From assembly GCA_947625405.1 (NCBI GenBank), contig CANQOF010000013.1, positions 1-51,998 on the forward strand: a stretch of DNA of 51,998 nt. Direction: 5' to 3'. Under the pieces are notes generated by a model. The model worked only from the letters and a program-made list of their open reading frames with translations. It had not been told where the DNA came from and searched no databases. Positions 28,998-35,146 of the stretch are shown one piece after another; within the stretch, counting starts at the first letter, position 1, and each line of letters starts with the position of its first letter. The translations under genes were made by a program, and so were the position numbers. Source of the stretch: an uncultured Atopobiaceae bacterium (GTDB lineage: Bacteria; Actinomycetota; Coriobacteriia; Coriobacteriales; Atopobiaceae).

Positions 28998-29016
28998 GGC
29001 GCCCTTCTGGCCCCAC

Positions 29017-29165
29017 AAGACAGTGGGGACGGAGCTTTCGTCTTGCGACAAGCCGTCTACCTGCGCCTTTGTCAAGACAGAAGGTCCGTCCCCACTGTCT
29101 TGCGACGTTTTCGCAGGTAGATGCGTCACGCGCAAGACAAAAGGTCCGTCCCCACTGTCTCGTCT
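29017..29165. repeat. Long copy of the GACAGTGGGGACGG repeat, copy A
   Basis: About 150 bp beginning CAAGACAGTGGGGACGGAGC. It contains three palindromic units and an internal 10-bp dyad (TCTACCTGCG / CGCAGGTAGA). It is nearly identical, in the same orientation, to 32336-32525, so the two copies flank precursor genes 1 and 2 and the flavin oxidoreductase. Confidence 0.85.
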
Positions 29166-29284
29166 CCACTGTCATGTCGTTCACGAACTCTCCTCGACTC
29201 GTACGCGAAAGGCAGCCGCGAATACATGAAAGCGCAGGTACAGGCTCCGTTCGCGGCTTCGGCCTTCGCGGGGGGCAACGTCAT

Positions 29285-29292
29285 GGATAATC
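29285..29292 (+). promoter_or_regulatory. Conserved GGATAATC element of precursor gene 1
   Basis: GGATAATC starts 42 nt before the ATG. The same octamer or a close variant lies 44 nt before precursor genes 3, 4 and 5. It may be a -10 box (GATAAT) or a regulator site. Confidence 0.6.
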
Positions 29293-29326
29293 GTCCCCAG
29301 TTCTCGATGTGCGGAAAGGAAGACTG

Positions 29327-29716
29327 ATGAACGAGAAGATCCAGAAGTTCTATGAGGCCGTCTCCACCGACGAGGCGCTCCAAGCAGAGCTCACCACCGT
29401 GACGGAGGGGGTCGTCGTCGACGGCGTCTCCGAGAGGCAGGCGCGCCAGGCCATGGCCGAGGCCGTCGCCGCCTTCGCCGCGGCCCACGATCTCGACCTC
29501 ACCGCGGCCGACATCCTCGCCGCCGACGCCGAGCAGCCCGAGGGCGAGATCTCCGAGGCCGAGCTCGAAGCGGTCACCGGCGGCGTGAAGTGCGGGTGCT
29601 TCATCGTCGGCGCGGCCACGGGTTGCGGCTGCTTCATCAGCGGCAGCAGGAAGAACATGATCAACCAGGGCGACGATACGCACACGAAGCACTGCCCGAT
29701 CGTCGGCGGCTACTAA
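29327..29716 (+). CDS. Nif11-like leader precursor peptide 1, Cys-rich core
   Basis: The 129-residue product has a Nif11-type leader (MNEKIQKFYEAVSTDEALQA, then AEAVAAFAAAHDLDLT and SEAELEAVTGG). The double glycine at residues ~85-86 is the expected cut site of a C39-type leader peptidase. The ~43-residue core begins VKCGCFIVGAATGCGCFISG and ends HTKHCPIVGGY. It has five Cys: two CxC pairs 8 residues apart and one near the end. The core has few Ser/Thr compared with lanthipeptides. GGAAAGGAAGACTG precedes the ATG. Product and activity are unknown; a modified, secreted peptide natural product is the best family-based inference. Confidence 0.85.
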   Translation: MNEKIQKFYEAVSTDEALQAELTTVTEGVVVDGVSERQARQAMAEAVAAFAAAHDLDLTAADILAADAEQPEGEISEAELEAVTGGVKCGCFIVGAATGCGCFISGSRKNMINQGDDTHTKHCPIVGGY

Positions 29717-29772
29717 TCGCTCTCGCGGGCGACGCCTCGTCCGGGTCGTGCGATTGTTTGGAGGAGAGATCG

Positions 29773-30159
29773 ATGAACGAGAAGATCCAGCGGTTCTATG
29801 AAGCCGTCTCGGCCGACGAGGGGCTCCAAGCCGAGCTCGGCGCTGCGGTGGAGGGCGTCGAGCTCGAAGGCGTCTCCGAGGAGGAGGCGCGGGCCGCCAT
29901 CGCGGAGGTCGTGGCCGCCTTCTCGGCCGAGCACGACCTCGACCTCACCGTCGAGGACATCCTCGCGGCCGACGCGGAAGCCGTCGAGGGACAGCTCTCG
30001 GAAGGCGAGCTCGAAGCCGTTGCGGGCGGCTCGAGCGGCTGCGCGTGCGTGATCATCGGCATGTTCAGGGGCTGCGGTTGCTTCATCGGCGGCGCGGCGA
30101 AGACGCAGGGCGTCACCGGCGGGGAGTACACCGCCTGCCCCATCATGGTCGGCCTCTAA
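29773..30159 (+). CDS. Nif11-like leader precursor peptide 2, Cys-rich core
   Basis: The 128-residue paralogue has leader MNEKIQRFYEAVSADEGLQA, helical middle and SEGELEAVAGG cut site. The core starts SSGCACVIIGMFRGCGCFIG, with the same CxC-x8-CxC signature, and ends with TACPIMVGL, so again five Cys and a C-terminal Cys-Pro-Ile. The ATG has GGAGGAGAGATCG upstream. It starts 56 nt after precursor 1 with no terminator or GGATAATC element between them, so the two are probably co-transcribed. A hairpin at 30192 follows. Confidence 0.85.
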   Translation: MNEKIQRFYEAVSADEGLQAELGAAVEGVELEGVSEEEARAAIAEVVAAFSAEHDLDLTVEDILAADAEAVEGQLSEGELEAVAGGSSGCACVIIGMFRGCGCFIGGAAKTQGVTGGEYTACPIMVGL

Positions 30160-30191
30160 GCCCACCTGCCACTTAGGGCACACGAGAGGGA

Positions 30192-30219
30192 AGAGGGGAG
30201 GCCTCAGGGCCTCCCCTCT
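30192..30219. terminator. Bidirectional hairpin between converging genes
   Basis: A perfect 12-bp stem AGAGGGGAGGCC / GGCCTCCCCTCT with a 4-nt loop lies between precursor 2 (plus) and the oxidoreductase (minus). U-tracts are poor on both sides. It probably ends both transcripts. Confidence 0.6.
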
Positions 30220-30253
30220 CGCATTTCGCAGCTCAGACGGAGGGATTCACGAG

Positions 30254-32245
30254 CTAGATGTTGTTGCCGACCTCGAAGCCGTCCCAAACGGACGTGAGGA
30301 TCGTGCCCACGCGGCGCTCGTCGCCGATCACGTAGACCGTCTGGCCGGCGGCCTGCAGCTCGGCGGCCATGGACGCGCGCGGCCTCAGGCCCACGGCCAT
30401 CACGATCGTGTCGGCCTCGAGCGTGCGCTCGGCACCGTCGACCTCGACGATGGCCCTGCCGTCCTCGATGCGATTGAGCTTCGCGCTCGTGAGCACCTCG
30501 ACGTCGTGGTAGGCGAGGAGGTCGCCCATCATCTGCGCGTTCATCGCGGGCGCGGGCGCGCCGGCGGCCATGATCTTCGGGAGCATCTCCACGACCGTGA
30601 CCTTCTTGCCCTCCTGCGCCCAGCCGAGCGCGCACTCGCAGCCCACCGAGCCGCCGCCGACGACGATCACGGACGAGCCGACCTTCTCCGGCTGCTCGAG
30701 CGCGGTGATGGAGTCGACGGCCTTTGGGTCGTCGGTGCCGGGGACGGGCGGGATCGTGGGCTCGGCACCCGTTGCGAGGATGACGACGTCAGGCTTCTTC
30801 TTGCAGATGCTCTCCACATCCATCGCCTTGCTGAGGTGCACGTCCACGTCGAGGTGGTCGAGCATGTGCTGGTACCACTCGTTGAGCTCGGCGATCTCGT
30901 GCTTGAAGGAGTGCGAGCCGGCCACCACGAGCTCGCCGCCGAGGGCGTCCTTCGCTTCGTAGAGGTCCACGTCGTGGCCGCGCAGGGCCGCCACGCGCGC
31001 GGCCTCCATGCCGGCGACGCCGCCGCCCACCACGAGCACGTCCTTCTCGCGGAAGACAGGCTTGTAGGCCATGCGAAGTTCGCGCTGGGCCTGCGGGTTC
31101 ACGGCGCAGGAGCAGGGCACGCCGTCGCCCAGGCGCTGGATGCAGCCGATATTGCAGGCGATGCACGGACGCACGTGGCTCTCGCGCCCGGAGAGCACCT
31201 TGTTCGGGTAGTCCGGGTCGGCGAGCGACTGGCGCGCGAGCGAGATGGCGGTGAGCGCGCCCTCTGCCACGGCCTTCTCGGCGATGGCGGCGTCGTCCAT
31301 GCGCCCTGCGCCCATCGTGGGGATGCTCACGGCCGCGGTTGCCTTGGCTGCGAGCTCCACGAAGAAGCCCTTCGGCATGTACATCGGCGGGCAGGCGTAG
31401 TAGTAGGAGTCGTAGGTGCCGGTGTCGATGGAGAGGCCGTCGTAGCCGTAGCTCTCGAGGAGCTTGCAGATCTCCACGCCCTCCTCGAGCGTGCGGCCGC
31501 GCTCGTCCTCGCCGGTGAGGGTGGCGGTGTTCCAGTCCTTCACGAAGGACTTGATGCCGAGGCGCATCGTGACGGGCCACGCCTCGCCACAGGTTTGCTT
31601 GATGCCCTCGACGATGAGGCGCGCTGCGCGCAGGCGATTCTCAAGCGGGCCACCCCACTCGTCGCCTCGGGTGTTCGTCATCGCCATGCCGAACTGGTCG
31701 AGGAGGTAGCCCCAGTGCATCGCGTGGATCTCGATGCCCGCGTAGCCGGCCTGCTTGGCCACGGCGGCGCTTTGGATCATGAGGTCGATCTTCGTCTTGA
31801 TCTGATCGACCGTGAGCTCGGGGGAGCGCATGTCCGTCGTGCCCCACACGGGATCGGGCGAGGGGGCGGGAAGATAGGGGTAGTTGCGCCCGAGGCCCAT
31901 GGAGATCATCGCGAAGACCTTCGCGTCGTAGGCGCCGCAGCGCTCGTTCAGCTCGGTGGAGGTGTCGATGTAGGCCGCGGGGTTCGCGAGGATGGCCGGG
32001 CCGAGCGCGCAGAAGGGGTCCACCTTGTCGTCGGTGGTGGTGGCGCCGGTGAAGATGAGGCCGAAGCCGCCGCGGGCGCGACGCGCGTAGTACTCGATGG
32101 CCTCGTGGGTGAAGCCGCCGGTGGGGTTGAAGAGCTGCGCGCCGCCCATGGGCGCCATGCAGAAGCGGTTCTTGATCGTGACGTCGCGGATCTTGAACGG
32201 GGTCGCGAGGATGGGGTAGGGGCAGTGGCGTTCGTGGCTTGACAT
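30254..32245 (-). CDS. NADH:flavin oxidoreductase, old-yellow-enzyme / dienoyl-CoA-reductase type (FMN, 4Fe-4S, FAD)
   Basis: The 663-residue protein has an N-terminal FMN-binding TIM barrel (TIKNRFCMAPMGG; AGYAGIEIHAMHWGYLLDQF). An Fe-S cluster site follows at C361, C364, C368 and C380, exactly the C-x2-C-x3-C-x11-C spacing of FadH-type 2,4-dienoyl-CoA reductase. The C-terminal half has two nucleotide-binding folds (VLVVGGGVAGMEAA for FAD; VIVVGGGSVGCECA for NAD(P)H). Relatives include dienoyl-CoA reductases, trimethylamine dehydrogenase and the BaiCD/BaiH bile-acid enzymes, so an enoate or similar unsaturated substrate is likely but unidentified. The ATG at 32245 follows GGAAAGGAGCGCC. It lies between precursor genes 2 and 3, on the opposite strand. 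Confidence 0.92.
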   Translation of the reverse strand: MSSHERHCPYPILATPFKIRDVTIKNRFCMAPMGGAQLFNPTGGFTHEAIEYYARRARGGFGLIFTGATTTDDKVDPFCALGPAILANPAAYIDTSTELNERCGAYDAKVFAMISMGLGRNYPYLPAPSPDPVWGTTDMRSPELTVDQIKTKIDLMIQSAAVAKQAGYAGIEIHAMHWGYLLDQFGMAMTNTRGDEWGGPLENRLRAARLIVEGIKQTCGEAWPVTMRLGIKSFVKDWNTATLTGEDERGRTLEEGVEICKLLESYGYDGLSIDTGTYDSYYYACPPMYMPKGFFVELAAKATAAVSIPTMGAGRMDDAAIAEKAVAEGALTAISLARQSLADPDYPNKVLSGRESHVRPCIACNIGCIQRLGDGVPCSCAVNPQAQRELRMAYKPVFREKDVLVVGGGVAGMEAARVAALRGHDVDLYEAKDALGGELVVAGSHSFKHEIAELNEWYQHMLDHLDVDVHLSKAMDVESICKKKPDVVILATGAEPTIPPVPGTDDPKAVDSITALEQPEKVGSSVIVVGGGSVGCECALGWAQEGKKVTVVEMLPKIMAAGAPAPAMNAQMMGDLLAYHDVEVLTSAKLNRIEDGRAIVEVDGAERTLEADTIVMAVGLRPRASMAAELQAAGQTVYVIGDERRVGTILTSVWDGFEVGNNI

Positions 32246-32335
32246 GGCGCTCCTTTCCTGCGCGCAAAAGATCGATACGCCAATTCTAAAGGAGCGCTCC
32301 ACTTGTACCGCGCACCGGCTGGCAGCCGGTCGCAA

Positions 32336-32525
32336 CAAGACAGTGGGGACGCGCAACAAGACAGTGAGGACGGAGCTTTCGTCTTGCGACAAGCCGTCTA
32401 CCTGCGCCTTTGCCAAGACAGAAGGTCCGTCCCCATTGTCTTGCGACGTTTTCGCAGGTAGATGCGTCACCCGCAAGACAGAAGGTCCGTCCCCATTGTC
32501 TTGCGCAGTCCCCACTGTCTTGCGC
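32336..32525. repeat. Long copy of the GACAGTGGGGACGG repeat, copy B
   Basis: It carries the same ~150-bp body as 29017-29165 in direct orientation, with an extra partial unit at each end. The family's hairpins could act as bidirectional terminators between the oxidoreductase promoter and precursor 3. Confidence 0.85.
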
Positions 32526-32529
32526 ACGA

Positions 32530-32649
32530 ATGGGGTGTGGTGGCGCACGAAAGTGCGCTTGTGTTTCACGATCGGTGCCTTGTGACGGATGCGGAAGCGC
32601 GTGGGGGATAATCACCCTCGGGATCGTCACCCAAGCGAAAGGAAGATCC
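32530..32649 (+). promoter_or_regulatory. Promoter and 5' leader of precursor gene 3, duplicated at precursor gene 5
   Basis: About 120 bp matches the region before precursor 5 (33698-33819) at roughly 85% by eye, much closer than the two coding regions. It includes GGATAATC at 32606, 44 nt before the ATG, then CACCCTCGGGATC and CAAGCGAAAGGAAGATCC. A perfect hairpin GCGCAC-GAAA-GTGCGC lies near 32544. Confidence 0.65.
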
Positions 32650-33045
32650 ATGAACGAGAACATGAAGGCCTTCTACGAGGCCGTTTCGGAAGACAAGAAC
32701 CTTCAGGCGGAGCTCACGGCCGTCACCGAGGGCGTGAACCTCGAGGATGTCTCCGAGGAGGAGGCCCGTGCCGCCATGGCCGAGGCCGTCGCCGCCTTCG
32801 CCGCTGCGCACGAGCTCGACCTCACCGCCGAGGACATCCTCGCGGCCGACGAGGCGCCCGAGGGCGAGCTCTCCGAGTCCGAGCTTGATGTCGTGGCCGG
32901 CGGCATAACGAAGACCGGTTGCGCGTGCGTCGTCATTGGCGCCGTGAAGGGCTGCGGCTGCTTCATCGGCGGCGGCGGCAAGGATATGGGCTTGGACATG
33001 CAGTTTCTCCCTGGTTGTATCGTGGCCGGCGACGGATTAGCGTAG
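32650..33045 (+). CDS. Nif11-like leader precursor peptide 3, Cys-rich core
   Basis: The 131-residue paralogue has leader MNENMKAFYEAVSEDKNLQA and ends the leader with SESELDVVAGG. The core ITKTGCACVVIGAVKGCGCF has the CxC-x8-CxC signature, followed by a glycine run (IGGGGKDMG) and a final Cys in LPGCIVAG. CGAAAGGAAGATCC precedes the ATG. It has its own promoter-like leader and a strong terminator at 33069, so it is transcribed alone. Confidence 0.85.
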   Translation: MNENMKAFYEAVSEDKNLQAELTAVTEGVNLEDVSEEEARAAMAEAVAAFAAAHELDLTAEDILAADEAPEGELSESELDVVAGGITKTGCACVVIGAVKGCGCFIGGGGKDMGLDMQFLPGCIVAGDGLA

Positions 33046-33068
33046 ACCGCGCTTTGTTGCGCACGCAG

Positions 33069-33117
33069 AAGGCCCCACTGGGCCTCCGCACGAGGAGGCC
33101 AAGTGGGGCCTTTTTTT
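33069..33117 (+). terminator. Intrinsic terminator of precursor gene 3
   Basis: A stem of about 18 bp (AAGGCCCCACTGGGCCTCC with GGAGGCCAAGTGGGGCCTT, one mismatch) is followed by seven T residues. Confidence 0.92.
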
Positions 33118-33274
33118 GCGTTTGGCAGGGGCGAGGGGGCCGCGCCTGTGGACATTCTGTGTGCCGCCACACCGGCCAACGGCACATTCCACGCGCGAAT
33201 GACGCGGACGCGCACACGAATCGACCTCCCCGCACGCCTTTCACGGTTTACGTCAAACAAGGGCATCTAGCTGG

Positions 33275-33282
33275 GGATAATC
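33275..33282 (+). promoter_or_regulatory. Conserved GGATAATC element of precursor gene 4
   Basis: GGATAATC starts 44 nt before the ATG. The region between (GACGCC ... CAAGCGAAAGGA) also resembles the leaders of precursor genes 3 and 5. Confidence 0.6.
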
Positions 33283-33318
33283 GACGCCAATACCCGCGGT
33301 CAAGCGAAAGGACGACCG

Positions 33319-33684
33319 ATGAGAGAGAACGTGTCCAAGTTCTACGAGGTCGTGTCGGCAGACGACGCGCTTCAAGCTGAGCTCGTCGCCGTCACCGAGG
33401 GCGTGGCCCTCGAGGGCCTCTCCGAGAAGGAGGCGCGCGAGGCCATGGCAGAGGCCGTGGCGTCTTTCGCGGCGGCCCACGAGCTCGACCTTGCCGCCGA
33501 GGACATCCTCGCGGCCGATGAGAAGGCCCCTGAAGGTGAGCTCTCCGAGGCGGAGCTCGCGGGCGTTTCGGGCGGAGGCCGCTGCGCGTGCGTCATCATC
33601 GGCGCCGTGAAGGGCTGCGGCTGCGTGGTCGTCGGGGGCGCGAAGAGGGAAAGCGTGAAGTGGACCTGCGGCGTCATTGGCTAG
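33319..33684 (+). CDS. Nif11-like leader precursor peptide 4, Cys-rich core
   Basis: The 121-residue paralogue has leader MRENVSKFYEVVSADDALQA and SEAELAGVSGG before the core. The core GRCACVIIGAVKGCGCVVVG carries CxC-x8-CxC, then KRESVKWTCGVIG with the fifth Cys. Its central block is identical to precursor 3 over VIGAVKGCGC, showing recent duplication or strong selection on this part. The ATG follows CGAAAGGACGACCG. The tail is shorter than in the others. Confidence 0.85.
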   Translation: MRENVSKFYEVVSADDALQAELVAVTEGVALEGLSEKEAREAMAEAVASFAAAHELDLAAEDILAADEKAPEGELSEAELAGVSGGGRCACVIIGAVKGCGCVVVGGAKRESVKWTCGVIG

Positions 33685-33697
33685 TGAGCACGCGCGA

Positions 33698-33819
33698 ATG
33701 ATGTGTGGTGGTGCACGAAAGCGCGCTTGCATTGCATGACCGGTGCCTTGCGACGAATGCGGAAGCATGTGGGGGAAATAATCACCCTCGGGATCCGCAC
33801 CCAAGCGAAAGGAAGATCC
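33698..33819 (+). promoter_or_regulatory. Promoter and 5' leader of precursor gene 5
   Basis: This is the duplicate of 32530-32649. The octamer is AAATAATC at 33776, again 44 nt before the ATG. The GCGCAC-GAAA-GTGCGC hairpin is degraded here. Confidence 0.6.
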
Positions 33820-34179
33820 ATGAACGAGAAGGTGACCAAGTTCTACGAGGCAATCTCTGCGGATGGCGCGCTGAGGGACGAGCTCCAGGCCGTGACCGAT
33901 GGCATCGAGCTCCACGTGGAGGTCGAGGGCCAGGCAGATCTGGCAAAGGCCATCGCCGCCTTCGCCACCGCGCACGGATTCGACCTCGCCCCGGACGACC
34001 TCCTCGTCGAGCCGGCCTCAGAGGGCGAGCTCTCGGAAGACGAGCTTGCCGTCGTGGCGGGCGGCTGGGTGCACGATTACGGATTTGGCATCGAGGAGTG
34101 CGATTGTCCCACCACTGGAAACGGCATCTTCACGCCGAAGCTTGAGCCTGGACAGTGCGCTCCTTGGGGGCGGTCGTAA
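33820..34179 (+). CDS. Nif11-like leader precursor peptide 5, divergent core
   Basis: The 119-residue paralogue keeps the Nif11-type start (MNEKVTKFYEAISADGALRD) and the SEDELAVVAGG cut site. Its leader middle differs (IELHVEVEGQADLAKA). The core is unrelated to the others: WVHDYGFGIEECDCPTTGNG then a Pro-rich tail with one more Cys (GQCAPWGRS), three Cys in total. Its upstream region is nearly the same as that of precursor 3, so promoter and leader seem to have been combined with a different core. The terminator at 34286 follows. Confidence 0.82.
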   Translation: MNEKVTKFYEAISADGALRDELQAVTDGIELHVEVEGQADLAKAIAAFATAHGFDLAPDDLLVEPASEGELSEDELAVVAGGWVHDYGFGIEECDCPTTGNGIFTPKLEPGQCAPWGRS

Positions 34180-34285
34180 TGTGAAAACTACCTCGCGTCT
34201 CCTGTCGCAGGAGACGGCTGCGCCGAAGCGGGCGAGAGGGATTTGCCCGGATGGCGAGGCGCGAGGGGACATAGGGGAACCCGAA

Positions 34286-34317
34286 GGGGCGCCGGCACGC
34301 GAGCCGGCGCCCCTTTT
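34286..34317 (+). terminator. Intrinsic terminator after the precursor cluster
   Basis: A perfect 11-bp stem GGGGCGCCGGC / GCCGGCGCCCC with a 6-nt loop is followed by TTTT. Confidence 0.85.
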
Positions 34318-34837: not shown

Positions 34838-35146
34838 ATGAAGACCGCAAGCGTGACGGTGCGCATCGAACCGGAGATCAAGCAACAGGCGGAAGCGGTG
34901 CTCGATCAGATCGGACTTCCGGTCTCGGTCCTCATCGACACCCTCTACCGGCAAATCATCATGACGGGCGGCGTGCCCTATTCGCTCACCGTGCCTAGGA
35001 TTTCCATGCGCGACGTCCTCACCGACGAGCAATTCGACGCAATGATGCGGCAAGGCATTGGGCAGGCACTGGCAGGTGACGGACGCCCGATTGACGAAGC
35101 GTTCCGAAGAGACCAGCTTTCGGCCTTGAGTGGTTTGATGGACTAG
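34838..35146 (+). CDS. RelB/DinJ-family antitoxin, no toxin partner adjacent
   Basis: The 102-residue protein begins MKTASVTVRIEPEIKQQAEA and continues VLDQIGLPVSVLIDTLYRQI. This is the ribbon-helix-helix DNA-binding and dimerisation pattern of RelB/DinJ antitoxins. These normally precede a YafQ/RelE mRNA interferase, but here only a non-coding repeat follows. It is either an orphan left after loss of the toxin or a stand-alone regulator. A ribosome site TTGAGAGGATAGACCGAG is plausible. Confidence 0.8.
   Translation: MKTASVTVRIEPEIKQQAEAVLDQIGLPVSVLIDTLYRQIIMTGGVPYSLTVPRISMRDVLTDEQFDAMMRQGIGQALAGDGRPIDEAFRRDQLSALSGLMD

Follow-up and report, generated by a model that had tools for sequence, protein, structure and literature searches.

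How are peptide precursors matured when no maturation enzyme is encoded beside them? This question is raised by five Nif11-leader genes on a stretch of 51,998 nucleotides (the window), which represents the entire contig C13 of the 1.72-Mb genome of an uncultured Atopobiaceae bacterium (98.5% complete). An earlier note on this DNA had described the genes as an unusual precursor-only island. Our analysis places them in a dispersed family that is probably served by a genome-wide, trans-acting system for ribosomally synthesized and post-translationally modified peptides (RiPPs), in which two radical S-adenosylmethionine (radical-SAM) enzymes, rSAM-A and rSAM-B, would modify repeated CxCx3G units and a C39 transporter would cleave and export the products. 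The presence of five precursors with a Nif11-type leader and a double-glycine site was confirmed at 29327-34179 (lengths in amino acids [aa]):

29327..29716, plus strand: G1 precursor, 129 aa; leader of 86 aa ending in VTGG; core from 29585, VKCGCFIVGAATGCGCFISGSRKNMINQGDDTHTKHCPIVGGY
29773..30159, plus strand: G2 precursor, 128 aa; core from 30031, SSGCACVIIGMFRGCGCFIGGAAKTQGVTGGEYTACPIMVGL
32650..33045, plus strand: G3 precursor, 131 aa; core from 32905, ITKTGCACVVIGAVKGCGCFIGGGGKDMGLDMQFLPGCIVAGDGLA
33319..33684, plus strand: G4 precursor, 121 aa; core from 33577, GRCACVIIGAVKGCGCVVVGGAKRESVKWTCGVIG
33820..34179, plus strand: G5 precursor, 119 aa; core from 34066, WVHDYGFGIEECDCPTTGNGIFTPKLEPGQCAPWGRS, with one CxCx3G and one Cx3G

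All five genes are intact and encode leaders of 82-86 aa that end in GG, followed by cores of 35-46 aa. Leader identity to G1 amounts to 60-61% for the other precursors and to 45% for G5. The leader model TIGR03798, on which the earlier note had staked its assignment, matches G1-G5 at E values of 3e-8 to 9e-4, so that the failure on all five by which the note would have been refuted did not occur; its curated cut-off is exceeded for G5 only (33.6 versus 32.3 bits), with E values of 3e-7 to 9e-4 for the others, and PF07862 lies above its cut-off for G1, G3, and G5. In the family alignment, the GG is invariant and precedes a variable core. AlphaFold2 models the leader as helical (predicted local distance difference test [pLDDT], about 84) and the core as unstructured (about 31), i.e., a modelled fold that resembles a RiPP precursor and is unlike a globular protein; on these values, the reading of the core as part of a globular protein was rejected. 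The cores are indeed poor in Ser and Thr, as the note had stated.

The common denominator of the cores is a short Cys-Gly motif, which was delimited from the sequence and from motif statistics:

29591..29611, plus strand: CGCFIVG, CxCx3G unit 1 of G1
29624..29644, plus strand: CGCFISG, CxCx3G unit 2 of G1
30040..30060, plus strand: CACVIIG, CxCx3G unit 1 of G2; unit 2, CGCFIGG, at 30073-30093
32920..32940, plus strand: CACVVIG, CxCx3G unit 1 of G3; unit 2, CGCFIGG, at 32953-32973
33583..33603, plus strand: CACVIIG, CxCx3G unit 1 of G4; unit 2, CGCVVVG, at 33616-33636
33667-33681, plus strand: CGVIG, C-terminal Cx3G of G4
34099..34119, plus strand: CDCPTTG, sole CxCx3G unit of G5; C-terminal Cx3G, CAPWG, at 34156-34170

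The 12 family cores of the source genome contain 22 CxCx3G units, compared with a mean of 1.05 and a maximum of 7 in 5000 shuffles, an excess that is not due to chance, and Gly occupies position +4 from the second Cys in 22/22 CxC pairs. If the final Cys of every unit is considered, the C-terminal one included, Gly is found at +4 in 32/35 cases. The general conserved unit, which is more informative than CxC by itself, is seven residues long, CxCx3G, and the last Cys usually opens a C-x3-G as well. The earlier description of a repeated Cys core holds with respect to the two C-x-C pairs and the fifth Cys of G1-G4, whereas the proposed 11-residue period is specific to this family. The fifth gene, which had been credited with a different core, keeps the motif (CDCPTTG and CAPWG).

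The search was extended to the remainder of the source genome, which was read as stretches around matches. A profile built from G1-G5 detected 12 intact family members on seven contigs: five on C13, two on C6, and one each on C7, C1, C16, C8, and C9. More divergent Nif11 leaders are located on contigs C4 and C10. One of them (L015, genome C10:58754) has a Lys-rich, amphipathic-looking helical core, NIFTDIWSGIKKGFDDLGDTLSKVGQDIYGGVKKLLKK, that resembles a class II bacteriocin, and this gene probably shares its exporter with the family. Public relatives are rabbit-gut ("Lapin") Atopobiaceae metagenome-assembled genomes and one contig binned as Eggerthellaceae. The latter is short, originates from the same rabbit sample, and harbors a single family precursor, CGCVIIGIAKKCGCFIYG (L031), reflecting either transfer or mis-binning. 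In the relative G004, six genes in an uninterrupted array (L017) form the counterpart of the island, which includes a member missing from the window, CFCVIIGAVKGCGCVLGGGG; the gene order of the window's five is kept there and partly in G001 and G003.

A different arrangement is found on contig C9, where a family precursor is followed, after a gap of 16 bp, by two tandem radical-SAM genes:

L037 10016-10405: family precursor
L037 10421-11845: rSAM-A, radical-SAM/SPASM enzyme
L037 11855-13255: rSAM-B, radical-SAM/SPASM enzyme

The two enzymes are 54% identical, and PF04055 and PF13186 score above their cut-offs in these genes. The order of precursor, rSAM-A, and rSAM-B is identical in G004. In G003, the pair lacks an adjacent precursor, and at least five family precursors are located elsewhere; such scattered precursors away from the enzyme pair are as expected of trans action. 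Contig C1 encodes an NHLM-type ATP-binding cassette (ABC) transporter pair (TIGR03796, 908 bits, cut-off 853; TIGR03797, 728 bits, cut-off 709), which contains the only C39 peptidase match of the source genome; a further family precursor is located about 5 kb away. The earlier note was correct that no maturation enzyme adjoins the five window genes and that enzymes had to be sought elsewhere, and the search for C39 transporters and RiPP enzymes that it had recommended yielded the candidates on C9 and C1. Its notion of a precursor-only island is ruled out, however, by the 12 dispersed family members, the enzyme pair directly downstream of one of them, and the C39 exporter. An apparently enzyme-less island is now tied to genes for its probable maturation and export.

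Which substrates may belong to the enzyme is suggested by its relatives. Homologues of rSAM-A (E <= 1e-60) occur in 41/397 genomes of the order, and in a set of 396 genomes from across the phylum they are confined to this order. In other genera, the cores beside homologues with 44-51% identity repeat CxCx3G and otherwise show a weak likeness to the window cores, and some CxCx3G precursors near rSAM-A homologues have other leader types. The units read, e.g., CFCAVAG, CACVVGG, and CHCPIGG in L159; CACATGG, CICAMAG, and CGCLGMG in L161; CWCVFEG, CTCSWDG, and CDCYVYG in L126; and CTCYTYG, CECYIYG, and CTCFHVG in L166. Four tandem precursors of L162 contain 13 units, and the two cores of L160 (genome G278) comprise CCCQYTG/CECPTTG/CRFMG and CCCRQTG/CDCPREG/CHSMG. 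In eight cores beside 44-48% homologues, 25/25 CxC pairs are CxCx3G, a count in which the external cores were gathered after the pattern had been seen and tandem paralogues are not independent. In a further subclade, Cx3G units stand singly (19 among 24 Cys). The sister enzyme clade comprises 12 radical-SAM enzymes without the motif (support 99/99), and none of the 42 Cys in its Cys-rich precursors opens a Cx3G. When 33 labelled enzymes were placed on a tree, the motif label required 4 changes versus 11.4 after shuffling, and 0/500 shuffles were as low. The motif tracks the rSAM-A enzyme clade, and CxCx3G represents a short sequence rule for predicting which substrates belong to this uncharacterised radical-SAM clade. 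The sister-clade precursors are a second, undescribed substrate type. Their loci (L165, L168, L172, L173, L174, L179, L181, L182, and L120) show another repeated Cys pattern, e.g., CWSNDEC and CWSNYMC, and in a wider scan some of the L165 precursors had a zinc-ribbon-like CxxCG pair as their tail.

These distributions bear on the idea that the window peptides receive no radical-SAM modification, but leave the cell via the NHLM exporter and then fold through disulfides or capture a soft metal (Cu/Zn) at CxC, as small metallothioneins or double-glycine bacteriocins do. CxC is familiar as a motif for soft metals, the precursors outnumber the enzymes and are mostly located away from them, and G001 combines many precursors with no detected rSAM-A/B. 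Disulfides or metal binding would not predict, however, Gly at +4 in 47/47 CxC pairs of 20 cores, many of them from separate loci, nor a motif that tracks a radical-SAM clade, nor an operon of precursor, rSAM-A, and rSAM-B, and we regard this explanation as improbable.

Other modification enzymes were sought in the same genome. YcaO (PF02624) is without a match there, and LanC-like or LanM proteins (PF05147) are without a match in the source genome or the genus. Azole and lanthipeptide readings are therefore unlikely; the former had been listed as an option in the earlier note, and its argument against the latter is supported. Besides further peptide-type radical-SAM proteins, two on C4 and one on C7, the other nameable ones are housekeeping enzymes (MiaB, RimO, RlmN, NrdG, HemW-like, and others). 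The C7 enzyme, which has a SPASM domain, stands beside a precursor with the leader MEEKLIEKL.. and the core TFSVLSSSTDPFYGKKVC. The enzyme at C4:120243 is a third paralogue that has partly lost its SPASM Cys residues and is found beside the core MGLPGDQCSLFGVDDEPMILWY. The genome also encodes a TIGR04340 ACGX-system protein (525 bits). The loci of these additional genes are L033, L038, and genome C4:16010.

Given this repertoire, the window peptides could be modified by another radical-SAM chemistry or enzyme, i.e., by ranthipeptide-like links to beta or gamma carbons, by epimerisation, or by the C7 or TIGR04340 protein, with Gly serving a turn only. The C7 enzyme is located just 0.7 kb from a CxC precursor, several SPASM RiPP enzymes of other chemistries match equally distantly, and the Cys-to-Asp link made by PapB likewise has a spacing of +4 (PMC9413430). 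A ranthionine at Gly is nevertheless impossible, because Gly has no beta carbon, the C7 enzyme belongs to a distant clade and adjoins a different type of precursor, and the motif follows the rSAM-A clade. This alternative appears rather unlikely to us, if less so than a lack of any radical-SAM modification.

Several observations weigh against the proposed trans-acting system and its chemistry. The enzyme pair is not located beside the window genes, so that their linkage is one of genome context. The structure model of rSAM-A (pLDDT 93) finds its best PDB matches in the sactisynthase SkfB and in SuiB, and SkfB also ranks first by sequence. The type of bond is nonetheless a guess, because none of the models for characterised sactisynthases gives rSAM-A a score anywhere near its cut-off (NF045574, 82 versus 625 bits; AlbA, 67 versus 850 bits). 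The acceptors of known sactipeptides vary, and here Gly is nearly fixed. In-clade enzymes of G048, G342 (C732), and G148 (C388) adjoin precursors without the motif. Of the five genomes with the family, two, G001 (91% complete, at least 11 family precursors) and G005 (69%), show no close match to rSAM-A/B, which may be explained by fragmented assemblies; G002 has an rSAM-B orthologue and no CxC family, and its contig stops where rSAM-A would lie. The HlyD-like partner of the NHLM pair (L034 17625-18230, minus strand) comprises only 201 aa versus the 421 positions of TIGR03794, and it reaches 43.6 bits (cut-off 156) by matching positions 1-57 only. Short HlyD-like versions are also present in G026 and G048.

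For the trans-acting system, which we still consider the probable one, the following sequence of events can be envisaged. The scattered Nif11 precursors would be recognised via their conserved leader by rSAM-A and rSAM-B (N-terminal part), and the pair on C9 would thus act in trans on the window peptides. In each unit, the second Cys would most likely be joined to the alpha carbon of Gly(+4), as would the lone Cys of the C-terminal Cx3G, giving small, un-nested thioether rings; the first Cys of each CxC could be a target of the second enzyme or engage in a disulfide. The single NHLM-type C39 transporter would cut after GG and export a set of different mature peptides, which probably act in antagonism or signalling between gut bacteria. 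The Cys-Gly(+4) thioether is the most economical prediction in view of the Cys-to-Gly bond of streptosactin, the +4 spacing of PapB, and the two radical-SAM enzymes of thuricin CD. More tentatively, CxCx3G may direct both recognition and crosslinking in a new class of RiPPs from Coriobacteriales, with one dedicated SPASM clade joining Cys to Gly(+4) in five-residue un-nested rings, a partner enzyme acting on the first Cys, and one enzyme pair plus exporter for a dozen or more dispersed cores; we see this as a possibility somewhat short of an even chance.

Are the window genes functional at all? Orthologous cores are 95-100% identical between species (pooled dN, nonsynonymous substitutions per site, 0.012; dS, synonymous, 0.131), and the orthologous leaders diverge more (dN 0.059, dS 0.361). 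Compared with the window, the core of the L017 orthologue of G1 is identical, and those of G2, G3, G4, and G5 show 95%, 98%, 97%, and 95% identity. Among paralogues, identity is 66% in the leader and 33% in the core. These genes are being maintained, with each core representing a distinct product under constraint. For orthologous precursor pairs, dS is lower in cores (0.13) than in leaders (0.36), which suggests leader exchange among paralogues or a nucleotide-level constraint on the cores.

The window genes might alternatively be decaying or surplus paralogues that yield no product themselves, with the working cluster located on C9. A truncated family copy on C7 (L006 1043-1255) and the many paralogues would fit decay, and flanking 151-nt direct repeats (95%; 29010-29160 and 32351-32501) suggest recombination. 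We consider decay very improbable, given five intact genes in an order that is retained in relatives, strong purifying selection, and conserved promoters. The repeats are built of GTCCGTCCCCANTGTC copies in either orientation (the window contains 5, versus 0.01 expected), and the same element is also found beside precursors on other contigs (L035, L131, and L017).

The promoters share a -10-like element of the NATAAT type, 41-43 bp upstream of the ATG of G1, G3, G4, and G5:

29286..29291, plus strand: -10-like GATAAT of G1, 41 bp upstream of the ATG
32607-32612, plus strand: -10-like element of G3, NATAAT type
33276-33281, plus strand: -10-like element of G4, NATAAT type
33777-33782, plus strand: -10-like AATAAT of G5

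Counted at 38-48 bp upstream of the ATG, NATAAT precedes 9/12 family genes of the source genome versus 1/103 other genes. G2 has no such element upstream and is probably co-transcribed with G1.

Two neighboring genes complete the locus:

30254-32245, minus strand: Old Yellow Enzyme (OYE)-type Fe-S flavoenzyme between G2 and G3, resembling BaiCD and bilirubin reductase of the long form (380 bits, under the cut-off)
34838-35146, plus strand: RelB/DinJ-like antitoxin, directly 3' of the precursor array, just under its cut-off (45.6 versus 45.65 bits)

The flavin oxidoreductase was rejected as a maturation enzyme: it is BaiCD/bilirubin-reductase OYE-like, and the G2-G3 gap of G004 spans only about 0.6 kb (L017).

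Among known systems, sactipeptides (streptosactin, SkfB, RumC, and thuricin CD) share SPASM radical-SAM enzymes with the system described here, and SkfB is the best PDB match. Streptosactin (GggA/GggB) has a Cys-to-Gly S-Calpha bond and un-nested rings (PMC8172795), and thuricin CD requires two radical-SAM enzymes that act as a complex (PMC12093266). The spacing there is +3, however, compared with +4 here, where CxC pairs and a Nif11 leader are present and the enzymes score far below the sactisynthase cut-offs; because of this result for the maturase family, we did not file the system as a sactipeptide. The ranthipeptide PapA/PapB also has repeated Cys with a partner at +4 (Cys-to-Asp link, CX3D; PMC9413430). 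Its partner is Asp/Glu, in contrast to the Gly found here at 32/35 unit-final Cys, so that no beta-carbon link is possible, and owing to this acceptor the system was not filed as a ranthipeptide either.

A further precedent is a 2014 survey, in the relevant passage of which Elen_2949, Elen_2953, and Elen_2954 of Eggerthella lenta are listed as Nif11/NHLP precursors whose clusters include radical-SAM proteins (PMC4289311). The precursor lengths and leader/core splits of L160 match these three, and genome G278 would accordingly be E. lenta. The L160 enzyme is 51% identical to rSAM-A and lies beside these precursors of exactly matching lengths, and the counterparts of Elen_2949 and Elen_2953 have two CxCx3G and one Cx3G, a layout as in the window genes. 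The E. lenta genes form a local cluster, in contrast to the dispersed set here, and that passage of the survey mentions radical SAM but not the motif. In the open-access literature searched, no description of the CxCx3G rule, the enzyme clade, or the dispersed Atopobiaceae set was found. Since motif and enzyme co-occur in a genome matching E. lenta, a common human-gut species, the chemistry is directly testable.

With respect to its organization, the system resembles the prochlorosins and synechococsins, whose Nif11 precursors are scattered, some in the enzyme cluster and others alone, and share one LanM (PMC10783134). Dispersed Nif11 precursors, few shared enzymes, and diverse cores are common to both. 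Prochlorosins depend on LanM and Ser/Thr/Cys cores, whereas no LanC-like protein was found here and a tandem radical-SAM/SPASM pair is combined with a fixed CxCx3G. We infer that the window genes encode radical-SAM-modified Nif11 RiPPs that are organised like prochlorosins. If confirmed, this would add a second natural case to the prochlorosins in which a single set of enzymes serves a dispersed Nif11 library, and it would exemplify a radical chemistry that tolerates very different cores.

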